57,299 nt of DNA from positions 1 through 57,299 of the forward strand of contig NZ_JACVQL010000113.1 of NCBI RefSeq assembly GCF_019733465.1, read 5' to 3'. The notes beneath the pieces are model-generated. The model worked only from the letters and a program-made list of their open reading frames with translations. It did no database searches and was not told the DNA's origin. The stretch is from Actinotalea ferrariae (GTDB taxonomy: Bacteria > Actinomycetota > Actinomycetes > Actinomycetales > Cellulomonadaceae). Of the stretch, positions 14,552 through 45,437 are shown in pieces (the first letter of the stretch is position 1; each line of letters starts with the position of its first letter). The position numbers and the translations under genes are program-made.

Positions 14552-14740
14552 GACCTGAGAGTTTGGCCTGCGAGCCGTGCGGCCCGCCGGCGTGCACCGT
14601 CGGTGGACCGCCCGATGGTGCGGCGGTCGCTTTCCAGAGTTGCCTCGCTGCGGCGGTACGTGGGCCTGAGAGATTCCCGGGGAGGGCCTTGCTCCTTCGG
14701 CGTCGCGGACAGGCGGTCCGCGAGCTCTCCCACCGCAGCT
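14552..14740 (-). promoter_or_regulatory. Tandem glycine riboswitch
   Basis: Two aptamers in series upstream of gcvP, read on the minus strand. Aptamer 1 (about 14740-14662) shows GGGAGAG, then CGCCGAAGGAGCAA, then AATCTCTCAGGC. Aptamer 2 (about 14639-14554) shows CTCTGGAAAG, then CACCGACGGTGCA, then AAACTCTCAGG. These are the conserved glycine riboswitch blocks. A GGGCGCGCGCCC palindrome at 14539-14550 follows directly and could be part of the switch; there is no U-run, so control may be at translation. A -10-like TACGCT lies at 14767-14772. Glycine should turn the operon on. Confidence 0.93.
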
Positions 14741-14913
14741 CGAGCAGCGTGTTCGGTTGTGGGGCCAGCGTAGACCGCGCGGGGGCGCAACGGGGCGATG
14801 GTCGGGTGTCGATGGCCTCGGCGATGACGCGGGCTGCCAACGTCGTTCGAGATGGCGTGGCCCGCGTCGCGCGTGTGCTCGCTGAATCCGTCAGTTCACG
14901 TCCTGCTGAGCCC

Positions 14914-19794: not shown

Positions 19795-19846
19795 ACGCGG
19801 CGGGGTCTGAGGCACGGCGGGGGTCTGACCGCGGCCGGGCATGGAA

Positions 19847-19914
19847 CAGCCCGTGGGTTACCGGTCGGGATGACCGGCGCGCCGTGCTGGACGATGCACG
19901 GCCCCCACGGGCTG
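19847..19914 (-). ncRNA. Three-way-junction RNA fold, strand not certain
   Basis: Three perfect nested stems: P1 CAGCCCGTGGG (19847-19857) with CCCACGGGCTG (19904-19914), enclosing P2 CCGGTC-5 nt-GACCGG (19861-19877) and P3 GCCGTGC-8 nt-GCACGGC (19881-19902). Only a few unpaired bases join them. A further 10-base pair, GGTGACTGCC (19916-19925) with GGCAGTCACC (19994-20003), links it to the end of the small ORF at 19988-20026, which favours the minus strand. I do not recognise a known RNA class. Confidence 0.55.
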
Positions 19915-19987
19915 CGGTGACTGCCGTGGTCTCGCTGCCGCTCGGCGGCTCGGGACCGGAGGCAATCCGTCCGATCGACTCGGGCGA

Positions 19988-20026
19988 CTAGCGGGCAGTC
20001 ACCTCACGCGTCCGAAGAGAAATCAT
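19988..20026 (-). CDS. Twelve-codon ORF with extended Shine-Dalgarno
   Basis: Encodes MISLRTREVTAR and stops at TAG. AAAGGAGGTGGTCC at 20032-20045 can pair over about 14 bases with the 3' end of 16S rRNA (one G-U), far beyond a normal ribosome binding site; it sits 11 bases from the ATG. A promoter candidate (TTGGCA 20088-20083, TACGGT 20064-20059) lies upstream. The last codons pair with a downstream strand that leads into the three-way junction. No larger gene follows on this strand for 900 bases, so it is not an ordinary leader peptide. Function unknown. Confidence 0.6.
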   Translation of the reverse strand: MISLRTREVTAR

Positions 20027-20031
20027 CTTCT

Positions 20032-20088
20032 GGACCACCTCCTTTCCCGTGTGCCTCGACCGTACGTCGGCCTCCGCGGGACTGCCAA
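20032..20088 (-). promoter_or_regulatory. Promoter and extended Shine-Dalgarno of the small ORF
   Basis: Minus-strand -35 TTGGCA (20083-20088), 18 bases, -10 TACGGT (20059-20064), then AAAGGAGGTGGTCC (20032-20045). The Shine-Dalgarno is unusually long, which suggests selection for very strong ribosome loading. Confidence 0.5.
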
Positions 20089-20257: not shown

Positions 20258-23029
20258 ATGCGCGGGTGGACCCTGCCTGCTGCTGTCACGACGCTCGGGG
20301 CGGCCGCCGTCGTCGTGTTCCTCACCGCGCCGGTGGGCTCCGCGCTCCAGGTCGGGTCGTTCCTCGTGCCCTTCACGCTGGCCGTCGCACTCCTCGGCCG
20401 TCGTGCCCTCACGGCCCGCGGCACGCTGCGACGGCCGCTGACCCTGCTGTGGTGGGGTGCCGTCGCGTACACGGCCGCGATGCTGCCGTGGTACCTCGCG
20501 CCCATGGTCTTCGAGACCGGCCTGCCCTTCCCCTCGCCGCTCGACGCCGTGTTCTTCGTGGCGTTCGGGACGTACGCCGCCTTCCTCGTGATCGTCCTGC
20601 GCCGCAGCGCGCCCGACCAGCGGGTCGAGAGCCGGATCGCGTTCACCGACTCCCTGATCCTCACCTCGGCGGCGTCCGCCGCGGTCTGGTCGCTCGTGAT
20701 CGAGCCCGGGCTGCGCTCCGACGAGCCCGCCTTCACCCGTGCGGTCGCGCTGATGTACCCGGCGTCGAACGTGGTGCTGTTCGCGCTCGCCGCGCGTCTC
20801 GCGGTGTCGAGCCGGCTCGTCACGACCGTCCCCGGGGTCCTCCTGCTCGTCTGGGTCGCCGGCGAGTTCGCGGGCAACGTCTTCTACGGCACGCAGGTCG
20901 CCGGTGGCACGTTCCTGCACGGCGGGCCCCTGACGACGACGTGGATGGCGTCGTACACCGCCCTCGCCGCACTCGCTGCGCACCCGGGGCTCGCGGCGCT
21001 CCTGCGCGGCGCCCGCGGCCGCCCGCCCGTGGCGGTGGGAGCACGCACCGCCGCCGCGGCCCGCTACGCGCGCCACGCGCTGCTGCTGGGCGCGACGCTC
21101 GTGCCGCTCGGCCTCATCGCGCTGCGTCCCGAGGAGGAGACGCAGCTCCTGGTCGTCGCGGCGATCACGTTCGCGCTCGTCATGATCCGGGTCCTGCTCC
21201 TCACCGGGGACCTCGGTGCGCAGCGTCGGCTCGCCGTCGAGCAGCAGCTGCTGCTCGACCGGGTCAACGCCCAGAACGTCGAGCTCCTGCGCTACGCGGT
21301 CATCGTCGACTCGACCGACGACTCGGTCATCACCGTCACGCTCGACGGCCAGGTCCGTGACTGGAACCCGGGCGCCACCCGGCTCTACGGCTACACCGCC
21401 GAGGAGATGGTGGGCCGCGACTCCGCGCAGCTCCTGCACGACGACGACCGCGACGCGTTCGCGAACGCGTTCCACACCGTCATGGAGCACGGGCACGCAG
21501 AGATCGAGACCGTCGCGCTGCGCAAGGACGGCTCGACGGTCGAGATCTTCGCGACCCTCTCGGCGATCCGCGACGACGACGGGACCACCACGGGCGTCGT
21601 CGGCATCGCGCGGGACGTCACCGAGCGCAAGGCCGTCGAGGCCCGGCTCCGCGACCACGCCCGCGAGATGCGGCGGCAGGCGTTCCAGGACCCGCTCACC
21701 GGGCTGGGCAACCGCGCGCTCTTCACGCAGCGGCTCGCCGAGCTGACCGACCCCGCCGAGGCGCGCGACCGGTCCGACATCGCTGTCCTCATGCTCGATC
21801 TCGACGACTTCAAGGTCGTCAACGACTCGCTCGGCCACGAGGCGGGCGACGCCCTGCTGGCCGCGGCCGCGACGCGCCTCGGCGACATCGTCGGCGAGTC
21901 CGGGACGGTCACGCGCCTCGGCGGCGACGAGTTCACCGTCATCCTCCCCACGGGCGGCGAGGCGGCGGGCGTCGCGCTCGCCGAGACGATCCTCGAGGCG
22001 TTCTCGCACGACTTCCACGTGCTCGGGCTCGCGCTGCGCACCGCGACGAGCGTCGGCGTCACCACGGGCGCGTCCGGGTCCGACGTCGGCTCGCTCCTGC
22101 GCAGCGCGGACCTCGCCATGTACGCGGCCAAGGCCGCAGGCAAGGGGACCCTGCGCGTCTACCAGGAGGACCTCCTCCAGCAGGCGCACGAGCGGCTCCA
22201 GCTCGAGAACCACCTGCGCCACGCCGTCGCGCGCGGCGAGCTCACGCTCGAGTACCAGCCCATCGTCGCGGCCGGCACGGGCGACGTCGTCGGGCTCGAG
22301 GCGCTCGCGCGGTGGCGGCACCCCCGGTGGGGCCAGATCTCGCCGGCGGCCTTCATCCCCGTGGCCGAGGCGAGCGGCACGATCGTGCCGATCGGCGAGT
22401 GGGTGCTGCGCACCGCGTGCCGCGAGGCGGCAGCCTTCGCCGCCACGCACGGACGCGCGGTCGGGATCTCGGTCAACGTCTCCGTGCGGCAGCTCCAGAG
22501 CGACGGCTTCCGCGACGTCGTCGAGGACGCGCTGCGCGACGCCGGCCTCGAGCCCGCGCTGCTCACGCTCGAGGTGACCGAGAGCCTGTTCATGTCCGAC
22601 GACCCGCGCTCGGGCGCCGTCCTCGACGAGCTGCACGCCCTCGGCGTCGAGCTGTCCGTGGACGACTTCGGCACCGGGCACTCGTCGCTCGCGAGGCTCC
22701 GGCTGCTGCCGGTCTCGGAGCTCAAGGTCGACCGCTCGTTCGTCAACGGCATCGGGCCCGACGGCGAGTGCGGCCCGATCATCGCCGCGGTGCTCGCCAT
22801 GGCGCGGGCGCTCGACCTGTCCGTCGTGGCCGAGGGCGTCGAGACCGAGGTCCAGCTGGACGCGCTGCGCCGTGCGGGCTGCGACCGGATCCAGGGCTTC
22901 CACATCGCACGCCCCATGCCGGCCGGCGACCTCGCGGCCCTGCCGCCCACGCTCGGCGCTCCCGACGGGCCGCGCGTCGGGTTGCTGCCGGGCACCGTCC
23001 CGGGTCGCGAGGCGGTCCGCACCGGCTGA
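20258..23029 (+). CDS. Membrane PAS-GGDEF-EAL protein (c-di-GMP synthesis and breakdown)
   Basis: 923 residues. About 10 hydrophobic segments within 1-320 form a membrane sensor of unrecognised type, followed by a PAS domain (about 345-450), a GGDEF domain with intact RLGGDEF near residue 555, and an EAL domain with GLEALARWRHP near 680, DDFGTGHSS, KVDRSFV and VAEGVET. All signature residues of both a diguanylate cyclase and a phosphodiesterase are present, so it could do either. It starts the cluster of c-di-GMP features here (riboswitch at 25258-25330) and has a flagellar-type promoter, which ties its expression to motility. ATG 20258 has a G-rich ribosome binding site. Confidence 0.93.
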   Translation: MRGWTLPAAVTTLGAAAVVVFLTAPVGSALQVGSFLVPFTLAVALLGRRALTARGTLRRPLTLLWWGAVAYTAAMLPWYLAPMVFETGLPFPSPLDAVFFVAFGTYAAFLVIVLRRSAPDQRVESRIAFTDSLILTSAASAAVWSLVIEPGLRSDEPAFTRAVALMYPASNVVLFALAARLAVSSRLVTTVPGVLLLVWVAGEFAGNVFYGTQVAGGTFLHGGPLTTTWMASYTALAALAAHPGLAALLRGARGRPPVAVGARTAAAARYARHALLLGATLVPLGLIALRPEEETQLLVVAAITFALVMIRVLLLTGDLGAQRRLAVEQQLLLDRVNAQNVELLRYAVIVDSTDDSVITVTLDGQVRDWNPGATRLYGYTAEEMVGRDSAQLLHDDDRDAFANAFHTVMEHGHAEIETVALRKDGSTVEIFATLSAIRDDDGTTTGVVGIARDVTERKAVEARLRDHAREMRRQAFQDPLTGLGNRALFTQRLAELTDPAEARDRSDIAVLMLDLDDFKVVNDSLGHEAGDALLAAAATRLGDIVGESGTVTRLGGDEFTVILPTGGEAAGVALAETILEAFSHDFHVLGLALRTATSVGVTTGASGSDVGSLLRSADLAMYAAKAAGKGTLRVYQEDLLQQAHERLQLENHLRHAVARGELTLEYQPIVAAGTGDVVGLEALARWRHPRWGQISPAAFIPVAEASGTIVPIGEWVLRTACREAAAFAATHGRAVGISVNVSVRQLQSDGFRDVVEDALRDAGLEPALLTLEVTESLFMSDDPRSGAVLDELHALGVELSVDDFGTGHSSLARLRLLPVSELKVDRSFVNGIGPDGECGPIIAAVLAMARALDLSVVAEGVETEVQLDALRRAGCDRIQGFHIARPMPAGDLAALPPTLGAPDGPRVGLLPGTVPGREAVRTG

Positions 23030-23186: not shown

Positions 23187-25007
23187 ATGAGGACGACCCG
23201 TGCCCTCTGGGGCGTCGCGCTGGTCAGCCTCGCGCTCGGGGCGTGCACGGCGTCGCCGCCGGACGGCGAGAGCACCACGCCGACGCCGACCCCGACGCCC
23301 GAGGTCGCACAGGTACCCGAGCTGCGCCTGCCCGAGGAGCCGACCACCGTCCTCGACGCGGCCGACGCCGCCGCACGCGCCGCGTCGCTCAGCGAGGCGC
23401 TCTTCGCGAGCGCGCCGGTCGCCGTGATCGCGCCCGCCGACGACGTCGCGGCGCAGGTCGACGCCGCCGCGATGGCGGTCTCGCTCGGGGCGCCGCTCCT
23501 CCTCACGGGGACGGCGGGCGGGACGAGCCCCGACGCGGCGACCGACGTGACCGCCGCCGAGCTCGAGCGCCTCAACGTCGTCGCCGTGCTGGCCGTGGGC
23601 GAGGCGGAGGACGACGTCGACCTCGACGTGCCCGTCACGGCCGCGCCCGACGACGCCCAGGACCGTGCGGCGGTGCTGCGCGTCGACCCGCTCCCCACAC
23701 CGTCGACCGCGCCCGGTGCGGAGGTCGCCACGGTGGCAGCGCTCGCCGCCGGGGCCCACGACCCGGGCGCCGAGCCGTCAGGCGGGTCCGGGGGTGAGCC
23801 GTCCGAGGCGCCCTCGGACGAGCCTTCGGGTGAGCCGTCCGAGGAGGCGTCGGACGAGCCGTCCGGGAGCTCCCCGAGCCCTTCGTCGAGCCGATCGACC
23901 GGCACGTCGGCGGGCTCCTCGCCCAGCGCGTCGAGCGAGGACGGCGAGGACCGGCTCCCGTTGACCGAGCGCGCGGAGACGCCGTCGGGCGGGCTGGTCC
24001 TGACCACGGGCGACCCGGTCGACGTGGCCGCCGTGGCGACCGCGCGGGCCGCGGGCGTGCCCGTGCTCGTGGTCCCGGGCGGCGACCCGAGGGTCGGCAG
24101 CGCGACCGTCCAGGCGGTGGCCGCGGCCGCCCCCACGGCCGTCGTCGGGCTCGGCGCGGCGTTCGGCCCGCCCGAGACGCTCACGTGGAAGGTCGCGACC
24201 GCGGCGACCGGGGTCGAGCTGCCGGGCGGCGGGCAGACGCTCTTCCCCGGCCGGCGCCTCGTCGCGCTCTACGGCACGCCGACGTTCCCGGCGCTCGGGC
24301 TGCTCGGCGAGCAGGACCTGCCCTCGAGCATCGCGCGCGCGCAGGGTCTTGCGGCCGAGTACCAGGCACTCACGGCCGACGTCGTCGTGCCGGCCTTCGA
24401 GATCATCGTGACGATCGCGTCGGCGGGCGCCGGGCCGGACGGGAACTACTCGAACGAGCTGCCCGTCGAGACGTTCGTCCCGTGGGTCGAGGCGGCGCGG
24501 GACGCGGGTGTCTACGTCGTCCTCGACCTGCAGCCGGGTCGTACCGACTTCCTCACGCAGGCGCGCCTCTACGAGCCGCTGCTGCTCTACCCGAACGTGG
24601 GCCTCGCCCTCGACCCGGAGTGGCGGCTCGCGCCCGACCAGGTCCACCTGCGGCAGATCGGCTCCGTCCACGCGAGCGAGGTCAACGCCGTGAGCACCTA
24701 CCTCGCGGACCTCACGCGCGCCCACGCGCTGCCGCAGAAGCTCTTCGTGCTGCACCAGTTCAGCCACCGCATGATCGCCGACCGGGCGCTCGTGGACACG
24801 AGCCGGCCCGAGCTGGCGACGATGATCCACGTCGACGGGCAGGGCAGCCAGGGCGCCAAGGCCGGCACGTGGGCGTCCCTCCAGCAGGGCGCTCCCGCGG
24901 GACTGACGTGGGGCTGGAAGAACTTCGTCGACGAGGACGTGCCGATGCTCACGCCGCCCGAGACCTACGCCGTCCAGCCGGTGCCGGAGCTCGTCACCTA
25001 CCAGTGA
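23187..25007 (+). CDS. Cell-wall-associated lipoprotein with CW_binding_2-like repeats
   Basis: 606 residues. The signal peptide ends in a lipobox, LALGAC, with Cys 20 as the lipid anchor. Then come repeats that look like cell-wall binding repeat 2 domains (VAVIAPADD...AAMAVSLGAPLLLTG at about 70-110; VLVVPGGDPRVG at about 290-310), split by a Pro/Ser/Glu linker (about 190-260). The C-terminal half (about 370-606) has a TIM-barrel-like pattern (VVPAFEIIVTIASAG, VYVVLDLQPGR, LALDPEW, LFVLHQFSH) that recalls glycoside-hydrolase-like proteins, but I see no defined catalytic pair. Likely exported and wall-bound; function unknown. GGAGGTGAG precedes the ATG. Confidence 0.8.
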   Translation: MRTTRALWGVALVSLALGACTASPPDGESTTPTPTPTPEVAQVPELRLPEEPTTVLDAADAAARAASLSEALFASAPVAVIAPADDVAAQVDAAAMAVSLGAPLLLTGTAGGTSPDAATDVTAAELERLNVVAVLAVGEAEDDVDLDVPVTAAPDDAQDRAAVLRVDPLPTPSTAPGAEVATVAALAAGAHDPGAEPSGGSGGEPSEAPSDEPSGEPSEEASDEPSGSSPSPSSSRSTGTSAGSSPSASSEDGEDRLPLTERAETPSGGLVLTTGDPVDVAAVATARAAGVPVLVVPGGDPRVGSATVQAVAAAAPTAVVGLGAAFGPPETLTWKVATAATGVELPGGGQTLFPGRRLVALYGTPTFPALGLLGEQDLPSSIARAQGLAAEYQALTADVVVPAFEIIVTIASAGAGPDGNYSNELPVETFVPWVEAARDAGVYVVLDLQPGRTDFLTQARLYEPLLLYPNVGLALDPEWRLAPDQVHLRQIGSVHASEVNAVSTYLADLTRAHALPQKLFVLHQFSHRMIADRALVDTSRPELATMIHVDGQGSQGAKAGTWASLQQGAPAGLTWGWKNFVDEDVPMLTPPETYAVQPVPELVTYQ

Positions 25008-25081: not shown

Positions 25082-25240
25082 TCAGACGGCGCGGAGCAGC
25101 TGCGTGGGGACGGCGTTGAAGCAGGCGCGCTCGCCGGCCATCGCGGCCCAGCGGGCCAGGACCTGCGCGGGGATCGCGGGGGCGGACGTCGAGTCCTCGA
25201 GGGACGTCGAGACGGACGCGGAGTTGCCGAGGTCGCTCAT
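25082..25240 (-). CDS. 52-residue protein under a c-di-GMP riboswitch
   Basis: A small ORF, too short for usual gene calling, encoding a protein that begins MSDLGNSASVSTSLEDS and ends with AVPTQLLRAV. The first 20 residues are Ser/Thr-rich and acidic; the rest is mildly hydrophobic with one Cys (GERACF). No membrane segment, signal peptide or family is recognised. It is supported by position: the ATG at 25240 follows 18 bases after a well conserved c-di-GMP-I riboswitch on the same strand, and a terminator lies just behind the stop. The ribosome binding site is weak (AGCAGG), which may fit control of translation by the riboswitch. Confidence 0.62.
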   Translation of the reverse strand: MSDLGNSASVSTSLEDSTSAPAIPAQVLARWAAMAGERACFNAVPTQLLRAV

Positions 25241-25257
25241 GACAGGCCTGCTCTCGT

Positions 25258-25330
25258 TCGGTGGCCCGGCTGACCCTGAGGGTCCCGTGGCTTTGCGTCC
25301 CCGCCTTGCGACGGGTTTGCCTTTTCGCTG
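25258..25330 (-). promoter_or_regulatory. c-di-GMP-I (GEMM) riboswitch
   Basis: Read on the minus strand: AAAGGCAAACC, a stem CCCGTC-GCAA-GGCGGG with GNRA tetraloop, GGGGACGCAAAGCC, then ACGGGACC-loop-GGGTCAGCCGGG. All core blocks of the class I cyclic-di-GMP aptamer and its tetraloop receptor stem are present in order. A -10-like TACAGT lies upstream at 25340-25345. No terminator follows the aptamer, so the switch may act on translation of the 52-residue ORF. Confidence 0.93.
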
Positions 25331-25482
25331 ACATCACGACTGTAGGTGGCCGTCCGCCCGCTGTGACCTGATCCACCCGACCACCACCCGTTCGGCGGAC
25401 ACCTTTCACCCGCTCCCCCCGGCACGTCGGCGTGCGCGGGAGCGCTCGATGCGGCGCGGCGTGCGCCCCGCGGGCGCTATCG

Positions 25483-43399: not shown

Positions 43400-45437
43400 C
43401 CCTGACCACCCCCACGGTCTCGATCTGCAGGCCCGCCCCGGTCACCTCGCTGTAGGAGAGCACCGCGAGGCGGGGGAGCGCCAGCGCCACCGTACGGCGC
43501 AGGGCAGGTCGGAGGGTGGGGGCGCACACGACGACGGACTCGCGACCGCTCGCCTCGCCCTGCGCGACGACGCCGCGCAGGTCGGCCAGCAGGCGCTCGA
43601 GGCGGTTCGGGTCGATGAGCAGGTGGGACCCGCCCTCGCCGGGACGGATCGACTCGACGAGCGCCTGCTCGAGCGTCGGGTCGAGCGTCACGACGCGCAG
43701 GACCCCGTCGTGCGCGTACGGCGCGGCGAGCGCCGGGCCGAGCGCACCGCGCGCCGCCTCGACGAGCGTCTCCGGCTCGGTGCTGACCTTCGCGCGCAGC
43801 GTCAGGCCCTCGTAGATGCGGGACAGGTCGCGGATCGCGACCTGCTCGGAGAGCAGGCCCTGGAGCACGCGCTGCACCTCGCCGAGCGTGAGCAGCCCGG
43901 GGACCAGCTCGTCGACGACGGAGGGGTTGACCTGCTTGACGCCCTCGGTGAGCACGCGGACGTCCTCACGCGAGAGCAGCCGGGCCGCGTTGGCGTCGAT
44001 GATGGCGCCGAGGTGCGTGATGAGCACGGACACCCGGTCGACGACGGTCGCGCCGACCATCTCGGCCGCGTGCCGCAGCTCGGTCGGGATCCACTTGCCG
44101 GGCAGGCCGAACACGGGCTCGACGACGGCCGTGCCGCCCACGCCCTCGAGGTTGTCGCCGAGCGCGAGCAGCCGCCCGCCGGGCGCCTCGCCCCGGCCGA
44201 CCTCGACACCCGCGATGCGGACGACGTAGGTCGAGCGCGGGAGGTCGACCGAGTCCCGCGTGCGCACGGGCGGCACGACGAAGCCGAGCTCCATCGCGAC
44301 CTTGCGGCGCAGGCCCCGCACGCGGGCGAGCAGGTCCTGGTCCGTGCCCGAGCCGACCATGTCGACCAGGTCGGGCGCGAGCAGGATCTCGATGGCGTGC
44401 ACGCGCATCTGCTCGATGAGCGCCTCGGGCGTGTCCGCCTGCGCGGGACGCGCCGGGTCGGTGGCACTCTCGGCGAGCGCTGCCTGGGCCTCGGCGGCGT
44501 CGGACGTCTTGATCCGCCACGCCGCGACCAGGAGCAGCGAGCCGACGAGCACGAACGGCAGCTTGGGGAGCCCCGGGATGAGCGCGAGCGCGATCGCCGC
44601 GGCACCCGAGATCTGCAGCGCCGAGCGCGACTGCATGAGCTGGCCGGCGGCGGCCGTGCCCATGTCCTCCGACGCCGTCGCGCGGGTCACGATGAGACCC
44701 GTCGAGACCGACATGAGCAGCGCGGGGATCTGCGTGACGAGGCCGTCACCGATGGTCAGGAGGCTGAACCGCTCGAGCGACTCGCCCGCGGACATGCCCA
44801 TCTGCATCATGCCGATCGCGAACCCGCCGAGCAGGTTGATGACGGTGATGATGATGCCCGCGATGGCGTCGCCCTTGACGAACTTCGAGCCACCGTCCAT
44901 CGCGCCGTAGAAGTCGGCCTCGGCGGCGATGTCGGCGCGGCGCTGGCGTGCCGTGTCCTCGTCGATGAGGCCCGCGTTGAGGTCGGCGTCGATCGCCATC
45001 TGCTTGCCGGGCATCGCGTCGAGCGTGAACCGCGCGCCGACCTCGGCGACGCGGCCCGCACCGTTGGTGATCACCGCGAACTGGATGACGACGAGGATGA
45101 GGAAGATCACGAGGCCGATGACGAGCGAGCCGCCGACGACGAAGTGCCCGAACGCGTCGATGACCTGACCCGCGTAGCCGTCGCGCAGCACGAGGCGCGT
45201 CGAGGCCACGTTGAGGCCCAGCCGGAACAGCGTCAGCACGAGCAGCATCGACGGGAACACCGAGAAGTCGAGCGGCCGCTTGACGTACATGCTGGTCAGC
45301 AGCACGACGAGCGAGATCGTGATGTTCAGGACGATGAGCACGTCGAGCAGCGCTGCCGGCAGCGGCACCACGAGGAGCAGGACGATGCCGACGACGCCGA
45401 CCGGCACGCCCAGCGTCATGAGCTGCTTGCCCTTCAT
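43377..45437 (-). CDS. flhA: Flagellar export apparatus protein FlhA
   Basis: 686 residues. The N-terminal half has eight membrane segments (about 5-300) with the FHIPEP-region landmarks FPSMLLVLTLFRLGLNVAST and AMPGKQMAIDADLNAGLIDE. The C-terminal half is the cytosolic domain that binds chaperone-substrate complexes. Forms the export gate ring. The ATG at 45437 fits the family start (MKGKQLMTLGVPV). Confidence 0.97.
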   Translation of the reverse strand: MKGKQLMTLGVPVGVVGIVLLLVVPLPAALLDVLIVLNITISLVVLLTSMYVKRPLDFSVFPSMLLVLTLFRLGLNVASTRLVLRDGYAGQVIDAFGHFVVGGSLVIGLVIFLILVVIQFAVITNGAGRVAEVGARFTLDAMPGKQMAIDADLNAGLIDEDTARQRRADIAAEADFYGAMDGGSKFVKGDAIAGIIITVINLLGGFAIGMMQMGMSAGESLERFSLLTIGDGLVTQIPALLMSVSTGLIVTRATASEDMGTAAAGQLMQSRSALQISGAAAIALALIPGLPKLPFVLVGSLLLVAAWRIKTSDAAEAQAALAESATDPARPAQADTPEALIEQMRVHAIEILLAPDLVDMVGSGTDQDLLARVRGLRRKVAMELGFVVPPVRTRDSVDLPRSTYVVRIAGVEVGRGEAPGGRLLALGDNLEGVGGTAVVEPVFGLPGKWIPTELRHAAEMVGATVVDRVSVLITHLGAIIDANAARLLSREDVRVLTEGVKQVNPSVVDELVPGLLTLGEVQRVLQGLLSEQVAIRDLSRIYEGLTLRAKVSTEPETLVEAARGALGPALAAPYAHDGVLRVVTLDPTLEQALVESIRPGEGGSHLLIDPNRLERLLADLRGVVAQGEASGRESVVVCAPTLRPALRRTVALALPRLAVLSYSEVTGAGLQIETVGVVRDAHAIAA

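Follow-up and report, generated by a model that had tools for sequence, protein, structure and literature searches.

Motility, membrane and biofilm genes abound in the known regulon of the c-di-GMP-I (GEMM-I) riboswitches, and in Streptomyces the bldC gene works in development alongside c-di-GMP and BldD. The locus described here joins a riboswitch of this class to a very short gene on the minus strand of the window, by which is meant the whole stretch of 57,299 nucleotides from Actinotalea ferrariae that was analysed. The riboswitch is of a known kind, and its target is an undescribed small protein that is specific to Cellulomonadaceae in the samples searched. Since the pairing recurs across this actinobacterial family, the 52-residue protein is probably an undescribed, regulatory output of c-di-GMP. 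The recurrent riboswitch flags a protein family that is lacking from Pfam and NCBIfam, that almost all of the searched Cellulomonas and Actinotalea genomes carry, whether they are flagellated or not, and that is often accompanied by a riboswitch-bearing bldC copy. The locus is therewith a small, testable handle on the use of c-di-GMP in these actinobacteria.

The aptamer and the genomes that carry the pair

The original prediction had placed a GEMM-I aptamer on the minus strand, and the covariance-model search proposed along with it returned scores above threshold. Rfam cmscan of the whole window matched RF03167 (c-di-GMP-I-GGC; gathering score 59) at 25329-25256 minus with 62.0 bits (E 2.9e-12), covering model positions 1-80, i.e. 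its full length, and an RF01051 (c-di-GMP-I; gathering score 35) search of the window's own genome placed 25256-25329 minus, with 67.2 bits, at the top of six sites. The gathering thresholds of both families are exceeded, and the parent label c-di-GMP-I is correct for this aptamer; the GGC subtype label is not firm because the RF03167 bits are lower than the RF01051 bits. At the positions equivalent to G20, A47 and C92 of the Vc2 numbering, which we take to be the ligand-pocket bases, the window aptamer has G, A and C. A G at position 20 marks c-di-GMP rather than 3',3'-cGAMP, and an A there favours 3',3'-cGAMP. Across 156 loci, a count that takes in L007 (read in the wrong orientation) and the G030 and G033 sites twice, the position-20 equivalent is G in 146, A in 6 and unreadable in 4. 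The 6 of 152 readable aptamers with A are L128 (G144), L161 (G131), L178 (G135), L044 (G002), L077 (G001) and L078 (G030), and the first three of these stand before the small protein gene.

An RF03167 search of 59 genomes, the window's own and its relatives, found the riboswitch in 26, with six copies in the window's genome, and the downstream sequence was read for all 103 listed sites. In Actinotalea, each of the 19 genomes has one riboswitch site that is followed by an ORF of 47-58 aa whose sequence follows VPPQVLARWAAxA..RA...LPxQ or a variant close to it (alignment A1). A profile search places the peptide in 19 of 19 Actinotalea genomes, at one place each, with a weak second match in G001 (E 0.003); the profile was built from the same 19 genomes, so that presence is given by construction, but the position behind the riboswitch is not. 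The family-wide profile search at E 0.01 matched 80 of 221 genomes, some of them by chance. The Cellulomonas version usually begins MDQRG and ends VPAQRE or similar, and the wider profile A2 matches 77 of 81 Cellulomonas genomes at E 0.01. Its strong matches (E <= 1.1e-5) comprise 76 places in 74 of the 81 genomes, and all 76 adjoin a c-di-GMP-I aptamer: 67 through a listed upstream RF03167 site, 6 as read in the sequence, 2 through RF01051 (G129 and G097:C1), and one, G112, counted by coordinates, its profile match overlapping the RF03167 site by 10 nt. The ORF is accordingly conserved behind the riboswitch in relatives, as had been predicted, at 19 Actinotalea and 76 strong Cellulomonas places that all adjoin an aptamer.

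An upstream riboswitch site is also present for at least 3 of the 15 weaker Cellulomonas matches. Both peptide and riboswitch are missing from the Cellulomonas genomes G063 and G123, the latter only 61% complete; of the two riboswitches in G133, one stands before bldC and the other has no detected peptide, and G093 has a single riboswitch, before bldC, and no peptide match. By sequence pattern, 8 of 51 weaker family matches were without an aptamer; one of the 8, L160 (G145), is a true pair whose aptamer the pattern had missed. The matches L197, L200, L202, L205, L208 and L209, most of them within long frames, look like chance and were rejected, and for L198 (G032) no RF01051 site was found in its genome. 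In an order-level sample, 15 of 396 genomes match the profile, all in Actinotalea or Cellulomonas, and in a class-level sample 2 of 394 do, namely the window's own and G903, which was set aside as a likely chance match with no aptamer motif in its 3-kb locus. The peptide was not found outside Cellulomonadaceae in these order- and class-level samples, which represent a part of all species, and a literature search of titles and abstract starts found no description of this riboswitch-peptide pairing.

Layout of the unit and the modelled direction of the switch

The 52-codon ORF expected after the aptamer is found at 25240-25082 minus, with its start codon 15 nt past the aptamer, and encodes the small protein of family A1/A2, which, as judged from conservation, profiles and coding tests, combines a conserved helix containing a W with a [VLI]P.Q motif at the C-terminus. 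A likely -10 promoter hexamer, TACAGT (25339-25344, minus), stands 9 nt ahead of the aptamer and is marked by the recurrence of TANNNT, which 68 of 72 peptide loci have 8-11 nt upstream of the aptamer (15 of 19 in Actinotalea and 53 of 53 in other genera, where 62 loci were tried and 53 parsed). The background farther upstream in peptide loci is 0 to 0.03 hits per offset, and in non-peptide riboswitch sites TANNNT lies 6-13 nt before the aptamer in 9 of 84; the sites compared take in L007 in the wrong orientation. Given 68 of 72 peptide loci versus 9 of 84 other sites, the peptide gene likely has its own promoter type, with a candidate -10 predicted from sequence, and its RNA probably starts within P1; a strict sigma-70 promoter scan called none at the window locus. 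The GUC on the 5' side of P1 (25330-25332, minus) is by its recurrence probably near the transcript 5' end, GTC being found immediately 5' of the aptamer in 69 of the same 72 loci.

Past the stop codon follows a long hairpin at about 25060-25018 minus, with a folding energy of -50.1 kcal/mol for a 78-nt stretch (z -4.7; 0 of 200 shuffles equally stable), which is the likely 3' end of the unit, possibly common with the convergent gene, and which lies ahead of the point where the convergent ORF 23187-25007(+) ends. The terminator that had been predicted after the ORF is thereby matched by a strong hairpin, but this hairpin is without a U run and was not called by the simple terminator scan. The predicted span of 25082-25330 fits, although the likely -10 box (25344-25339) and the 3' hairpin fall outside it.

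Behind its promoter, the unit would begin its transcript directly with the c-di-GMP-I aptamer, continue 15 nt later with the 52-codon gene and end in a hairpin. In the model that we consider reasonably probable, this is a self-contained c-di-GMP output unit, in which translational OFF control acts on a soluble regulatory peptide that binds a partner and is no dedicated flagellar part. Control is most likely translational because the distance from P1 to the ATG has no space for a terminator, and the control point would be translation initiation. Ligand binding would close helix P1, whose 3' strand abuts the candidate Shine-Dalgarno region GAGAGCAGG (25247-25255, minus), assigned directly 3' of P1 from the sequence and from the modelled accessibility of its GAG element. 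High c-di-GMP would then most likely lower translation, though the direction could be reversed; that the peptide is controlled by c-di-GMP at all is what we infer from this arrangement.

The model of opposite sign, in which the Shine-Dalgarno region is released on binding of c-di-GMP and the peptide is switched ON, is possible, if on balance doubtful. Accessibility was modelled with P1 forced versus forbidden, as secondary structure free of ligand and tertiary contacts, and in these terms the window GAG element has an accessibility of 0.49 with P1 formed and of 0.73 without it. Among 149 evaluated loci, including L007 in the wrong orientation and the G030 and G033 sites twice, P1 formation lowers the accessibility in 80 and raises it in 26; leaving out those three rows gives 78 lower and 26 higher among 146 loci, and for 138 distinct sequences 71 lower and 26 higher. 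The 26 loci speak for the ON direction, and include the G000:C66 bldC copy (0.84 versus 0.71), but the 80 others show the reverse; 24 of the 26 are other targets, while the peptide loci divide into 51 of 71 lower and 2 higher. Outside Actinotalea, the accessibility is lowered by more than 0.1 in 44 of 52 peptide loci and raised in 1, and within Actinotalea it is lowered by more than 0.1 in 7 of 19, raised in 1 and without change above 0.1 in 11. For the other riboswitch targets the directions balance (29 lower and 24 higher of 78). The modelled accessibility favours, for the peptide, the OFF direction at high c-di-GMP. An extended P1 was also considered and rejected as unsupported in the peptide loci, where the pairing is no better than with swapped partners. 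In this control, which takes in L007 in the wrong orientation and the G030 and G033 sites twice, the swaps equalled or exceeded the true pairing in 158 of 200 for 18 Actinotalea loci, in 46 of 200 for 48 Cellulomonas loci and in 6 of 200 for all 152 loci together.

Genomic neighbours and the wider regulon

The c-di-GMP enzyme at 20258 and the nearby motility genes of the original prediction are present in the window. By Pfam, the gene at 20258 is a PAS-GGDEF-EAL gene and a response regulator and a CheX gene (27346) lie upstream of the unit; FlhA is at 43440-45386, and the remaining flagellar and chemotaxis labels were assigned by eye. The convergent gene has 606 codons, a lipoprotein-like start (by eye) and no match in Pfam, and in Actinotalea the unit sits between a VanY-type gene and this convergent gene, at the 3' edge of a chemotaxis cluster. 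The window's genome has 27 GGDEF matches. The cmscan gave three Rfam matches over threshold in the whole window, RF03167 among them; a glycine riboswitch (RF00504, 59.8 bits) lies at 14644-14742 (-) ahead of a gcvP-looking ORF, and the actinobacterial sRNA Ms_IGR-5 (RF02471, 83.1 bits) at 19841-20052 (-), just before the opposite-strand GGDEF-EAL gene.

Such surroundings hinted that the motility genes explain the peptide, as an effector of flagellar motility or chemotaxis, a reading that we now regard as improbable. Relatives of the CheX gene (27346) and of the VanY-type gene do lie near the peptide in 16 of 18 other Actinotalea genomes examined, and so do relatives of the convergent gene (likewise 16 of 18; some loci end at contig ends), but in seven loci of three other genera the peptide lies away from any chemotaxis neighbourhood. 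A search for FlhA was positive in 114 of 221 family genomes, and 23 of the 74 strong Cellulomonas peptide carriers, some with fragmentary assemblies and several as single contigs, have no FlhA match. With a match in 51 carriers (G084 and G101 by fragments only) and in 6 non-carriers, there is no association (Fisher p 0.67). Genome G077, taken as C. flavigena, has the pair and no FlhA match; this species is reported to be without flagellar genes (PMC3035266, PMC3544764) and described as non-sporulating (PMC3035266). In Actinotalea, G016, G004 and G012 have the peptide and no FlhA match, G012 being assembled in about 630 pieces and carrying chemotaxis genes. A motility-specific role was rejected as the main reading, the chemotaxis neighbourhood being seen only in Actinotalea and the peptide persisting without FlhA. 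The peptide gene is not a dedicated flagellar gene, and its chemotaxis neighbours mislead, because it recurs without an FlhA match and in other surroundings elsewhere.

The company kept by the riboswitch itself is broader. The 87 listed Actinotalea sites, sorted by a rough pattern and re-sorted by eye, precede 31 BldC-like genes, 19 peptides (16 by pattern and 3 from the tiny class), 3 decayed BldC-like ORFs (2 by pattern and 1 from the tiny class), 3 EAL genes, 2 DUF7793 genes, 15 long ORFs and 14 other tiny ORFs. Most of the Cellulomonas sites listed, 150 in all, have the peptide or a bldC copy behind them: at least 70 stand before a peptide match, at least 64 before a bldC copy and 16 before neither by coordinates, 3 of the latter (G111, G112 and G114) having a peptide match that overlaps the site; at least 55 Cellulomonas genomes have both riboswitch-peptide and riboswitch-bldC. 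The peptide would in this way belong to a general c-di-GMP lifestyle programme, together with BldC-like, EAL and other riboswitch targets.

Several further features of these sites may be recorded. The decayed BldC-like ORFs of 61-66 aa in L083 (G018), L096 (G005) and L055 (G017) keep the riboswitch and seem to miss parts of the HTH, and look as if riboswitch-bldC cassettes duplicate and degenerate; tandem cassettes within 0.5 kb are seen at L053 (G003:C31:119790 and 120226). Behind another c-di-GMP-I riboswitch of the window's genome (L017 / L035, G000:C77:5284-5358) stands a second class of tiny ORF, of 31 aa (MSSTLLQRS...), and short ORFs like it, which could be leader peptides, follow sites in other Actinotalea (14 of 87 in the rough sort). 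The riboswitch also stands before a DUF7793/SpoIIAA-like gene in L102 (G002:C8), L101 (G010), L074 (G013) and L037 (G030), identified by Pfam in the G002 copy and by eye in the others; the overlapping frame after the G002 copy is GGDEF-like by eye, a possible c-di-GMP feedback operon.

The small protein and its comparison with BldC

The tiny ORF had been argued to be real on account of its riboswitch, and conservation and codon patterns agree. The frame test covered 19 core codons in 65 distinct sequences, and because the core was anchored on the protein motif, the test leans towards the true frame. The true frame gave a mean BLOSUM score of 1.75 and stops in 0 of 65, and the next best frame gave 0.93 with 7 sequences broken; two other wrong frames scored 0.55 and 0.69, with only 1 and 2 broken sequences. 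An alanine that is shared by 65 of 65 sequences is written by GCC, GCG, GCT and GCA. In a computation that took in 15 of 19 genes and 5 of 10 pairs, dN is below dS in all 5 pairs, from 0.04 versus 0.30 to 0.26 versus 0.35, with 0.14 versus 0.29 for the window and L016, and with a ratio only modestly below 1 for the window and G007 (0.26 versus 0.35). Conservation is poor in the N-terminal half of the peptide. On these codon-level comparisons, the ORF qualifies as a real gene under protein-level selection, and shows that even a very short ORF can be authenticated by its riboswitch.

The short unit and its strong terminal hairpin would also suit a riboswitch that controls a regulatory RNA, or an ORF that serves as a leader for a downstream gene, the peptide itself being functionless; this is very unlikely given the protein-level conservation with synonymous change, and the leader was rejected in particular on the grounds that the following gene runs convergently in the window and that the downstream surroundings change from genus to genus. 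That the ORF is there by chance, with the aptamer controlling something else, is scarcely credible: high-GC DNA is rich in spurious ORFs, several of which overlap this place on the opposite strand, but those opposite-strand frames are less conserved, the same pairing is found at 95 places (in related genomes, some nearly identical), and conservation and the frame test rule chance out.

Searches of Pfam, NCBIfam and PDB sequences returned no named small-protein family for the peptide, the best hint in the family searches being Lsr2 at E 0.2 in 1 of 21 members. AlphaFold2 on A2 predicts a single helix over residues 25-41, with pLDDT of 88-90 over residues 21-40 and of 55-71 for the remainder (pTM 0.36). 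The conserved positions are L28, W31, A32 and A35, then P45 and Q47, which suggests a binding face and a tail, and the modelled peptide probably consists of a single amphipathic helix with a binding partner. The product would be a soluble regulatory peptide with a disordered N-terminus, an amphipathic helix at 25-41 and a conserved [VLI]P.Q tail, and would act by binding a protein partner.

A more specific proposal names BldC as that partner. In the BldC structure, Phe21, Val23 and Trp31 pack on Leu11, Ile40, Thr42, Leu43 and Gly44 of the next subunit (PMC5859096). The peptide could be a BldC mimic, possibly a decayed BldC paralogue with a retained riboswitch, that caps the head-to-tail BldC polymer on DNA; the Val23-Trp31 face of BldC would be imitated by the peptide helix, with V/I at -8, L/V at -3, W at 0 and A at +1, and the BldC tail by the VP.Q tail. 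If this were true, BldC and its antagonist would both be set by one class of riboswitch, and c-di-GMP would in that way tune the activity of BldC, but we hold the proposal to be unlikely. By hhalign, the start of the peptide helix has a weak profile similarity to BldC FRVDPKTVTRWA (P 0.015, probability 2.9). The ungapped tail match to BldC was reached by 1 of 300 column shuffles and the cheap-gap alignment by 2 of 300, and [VLIAF]P.Q near the end is found in 32 of 32 A2 peptides versus 1 of 55 window ORFs; 13 of 250 unrelated segments of window ORFs score at least the BldC mean. The signal for BldC homology is weak and mixed, and homology is kept only within this bolder proposal.

Compared with known systems, our model of a self-contained c-di-GMP output unit combines a familiar sensor with an unfamiliar product. 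The window aptamer is like other c-di-GMP-I riboswitches (RF01051, with the RF03167 subtype) in its full-length model match and pocket bases, and differs from them in that, with its ligand predicted, it adjoins the gene for an undescribed stand-alone small protein. That protein is close in size to BldC, a 68-residue MerR-like winged HTH protein (PDB 6ama/6amk; PMC5859096), is found with the same riboswitch in the same genomes, and has in common with it a C-terminal [VLI]P.Q-type tail and a stretch resembling VDPKTVTRWA. It differs from BldC in having no wing and no HTH by Pfam: at E <= 1, no HTH family was matched by any of 21 members of the peptide family, whereas a true BldC-like protein does match.
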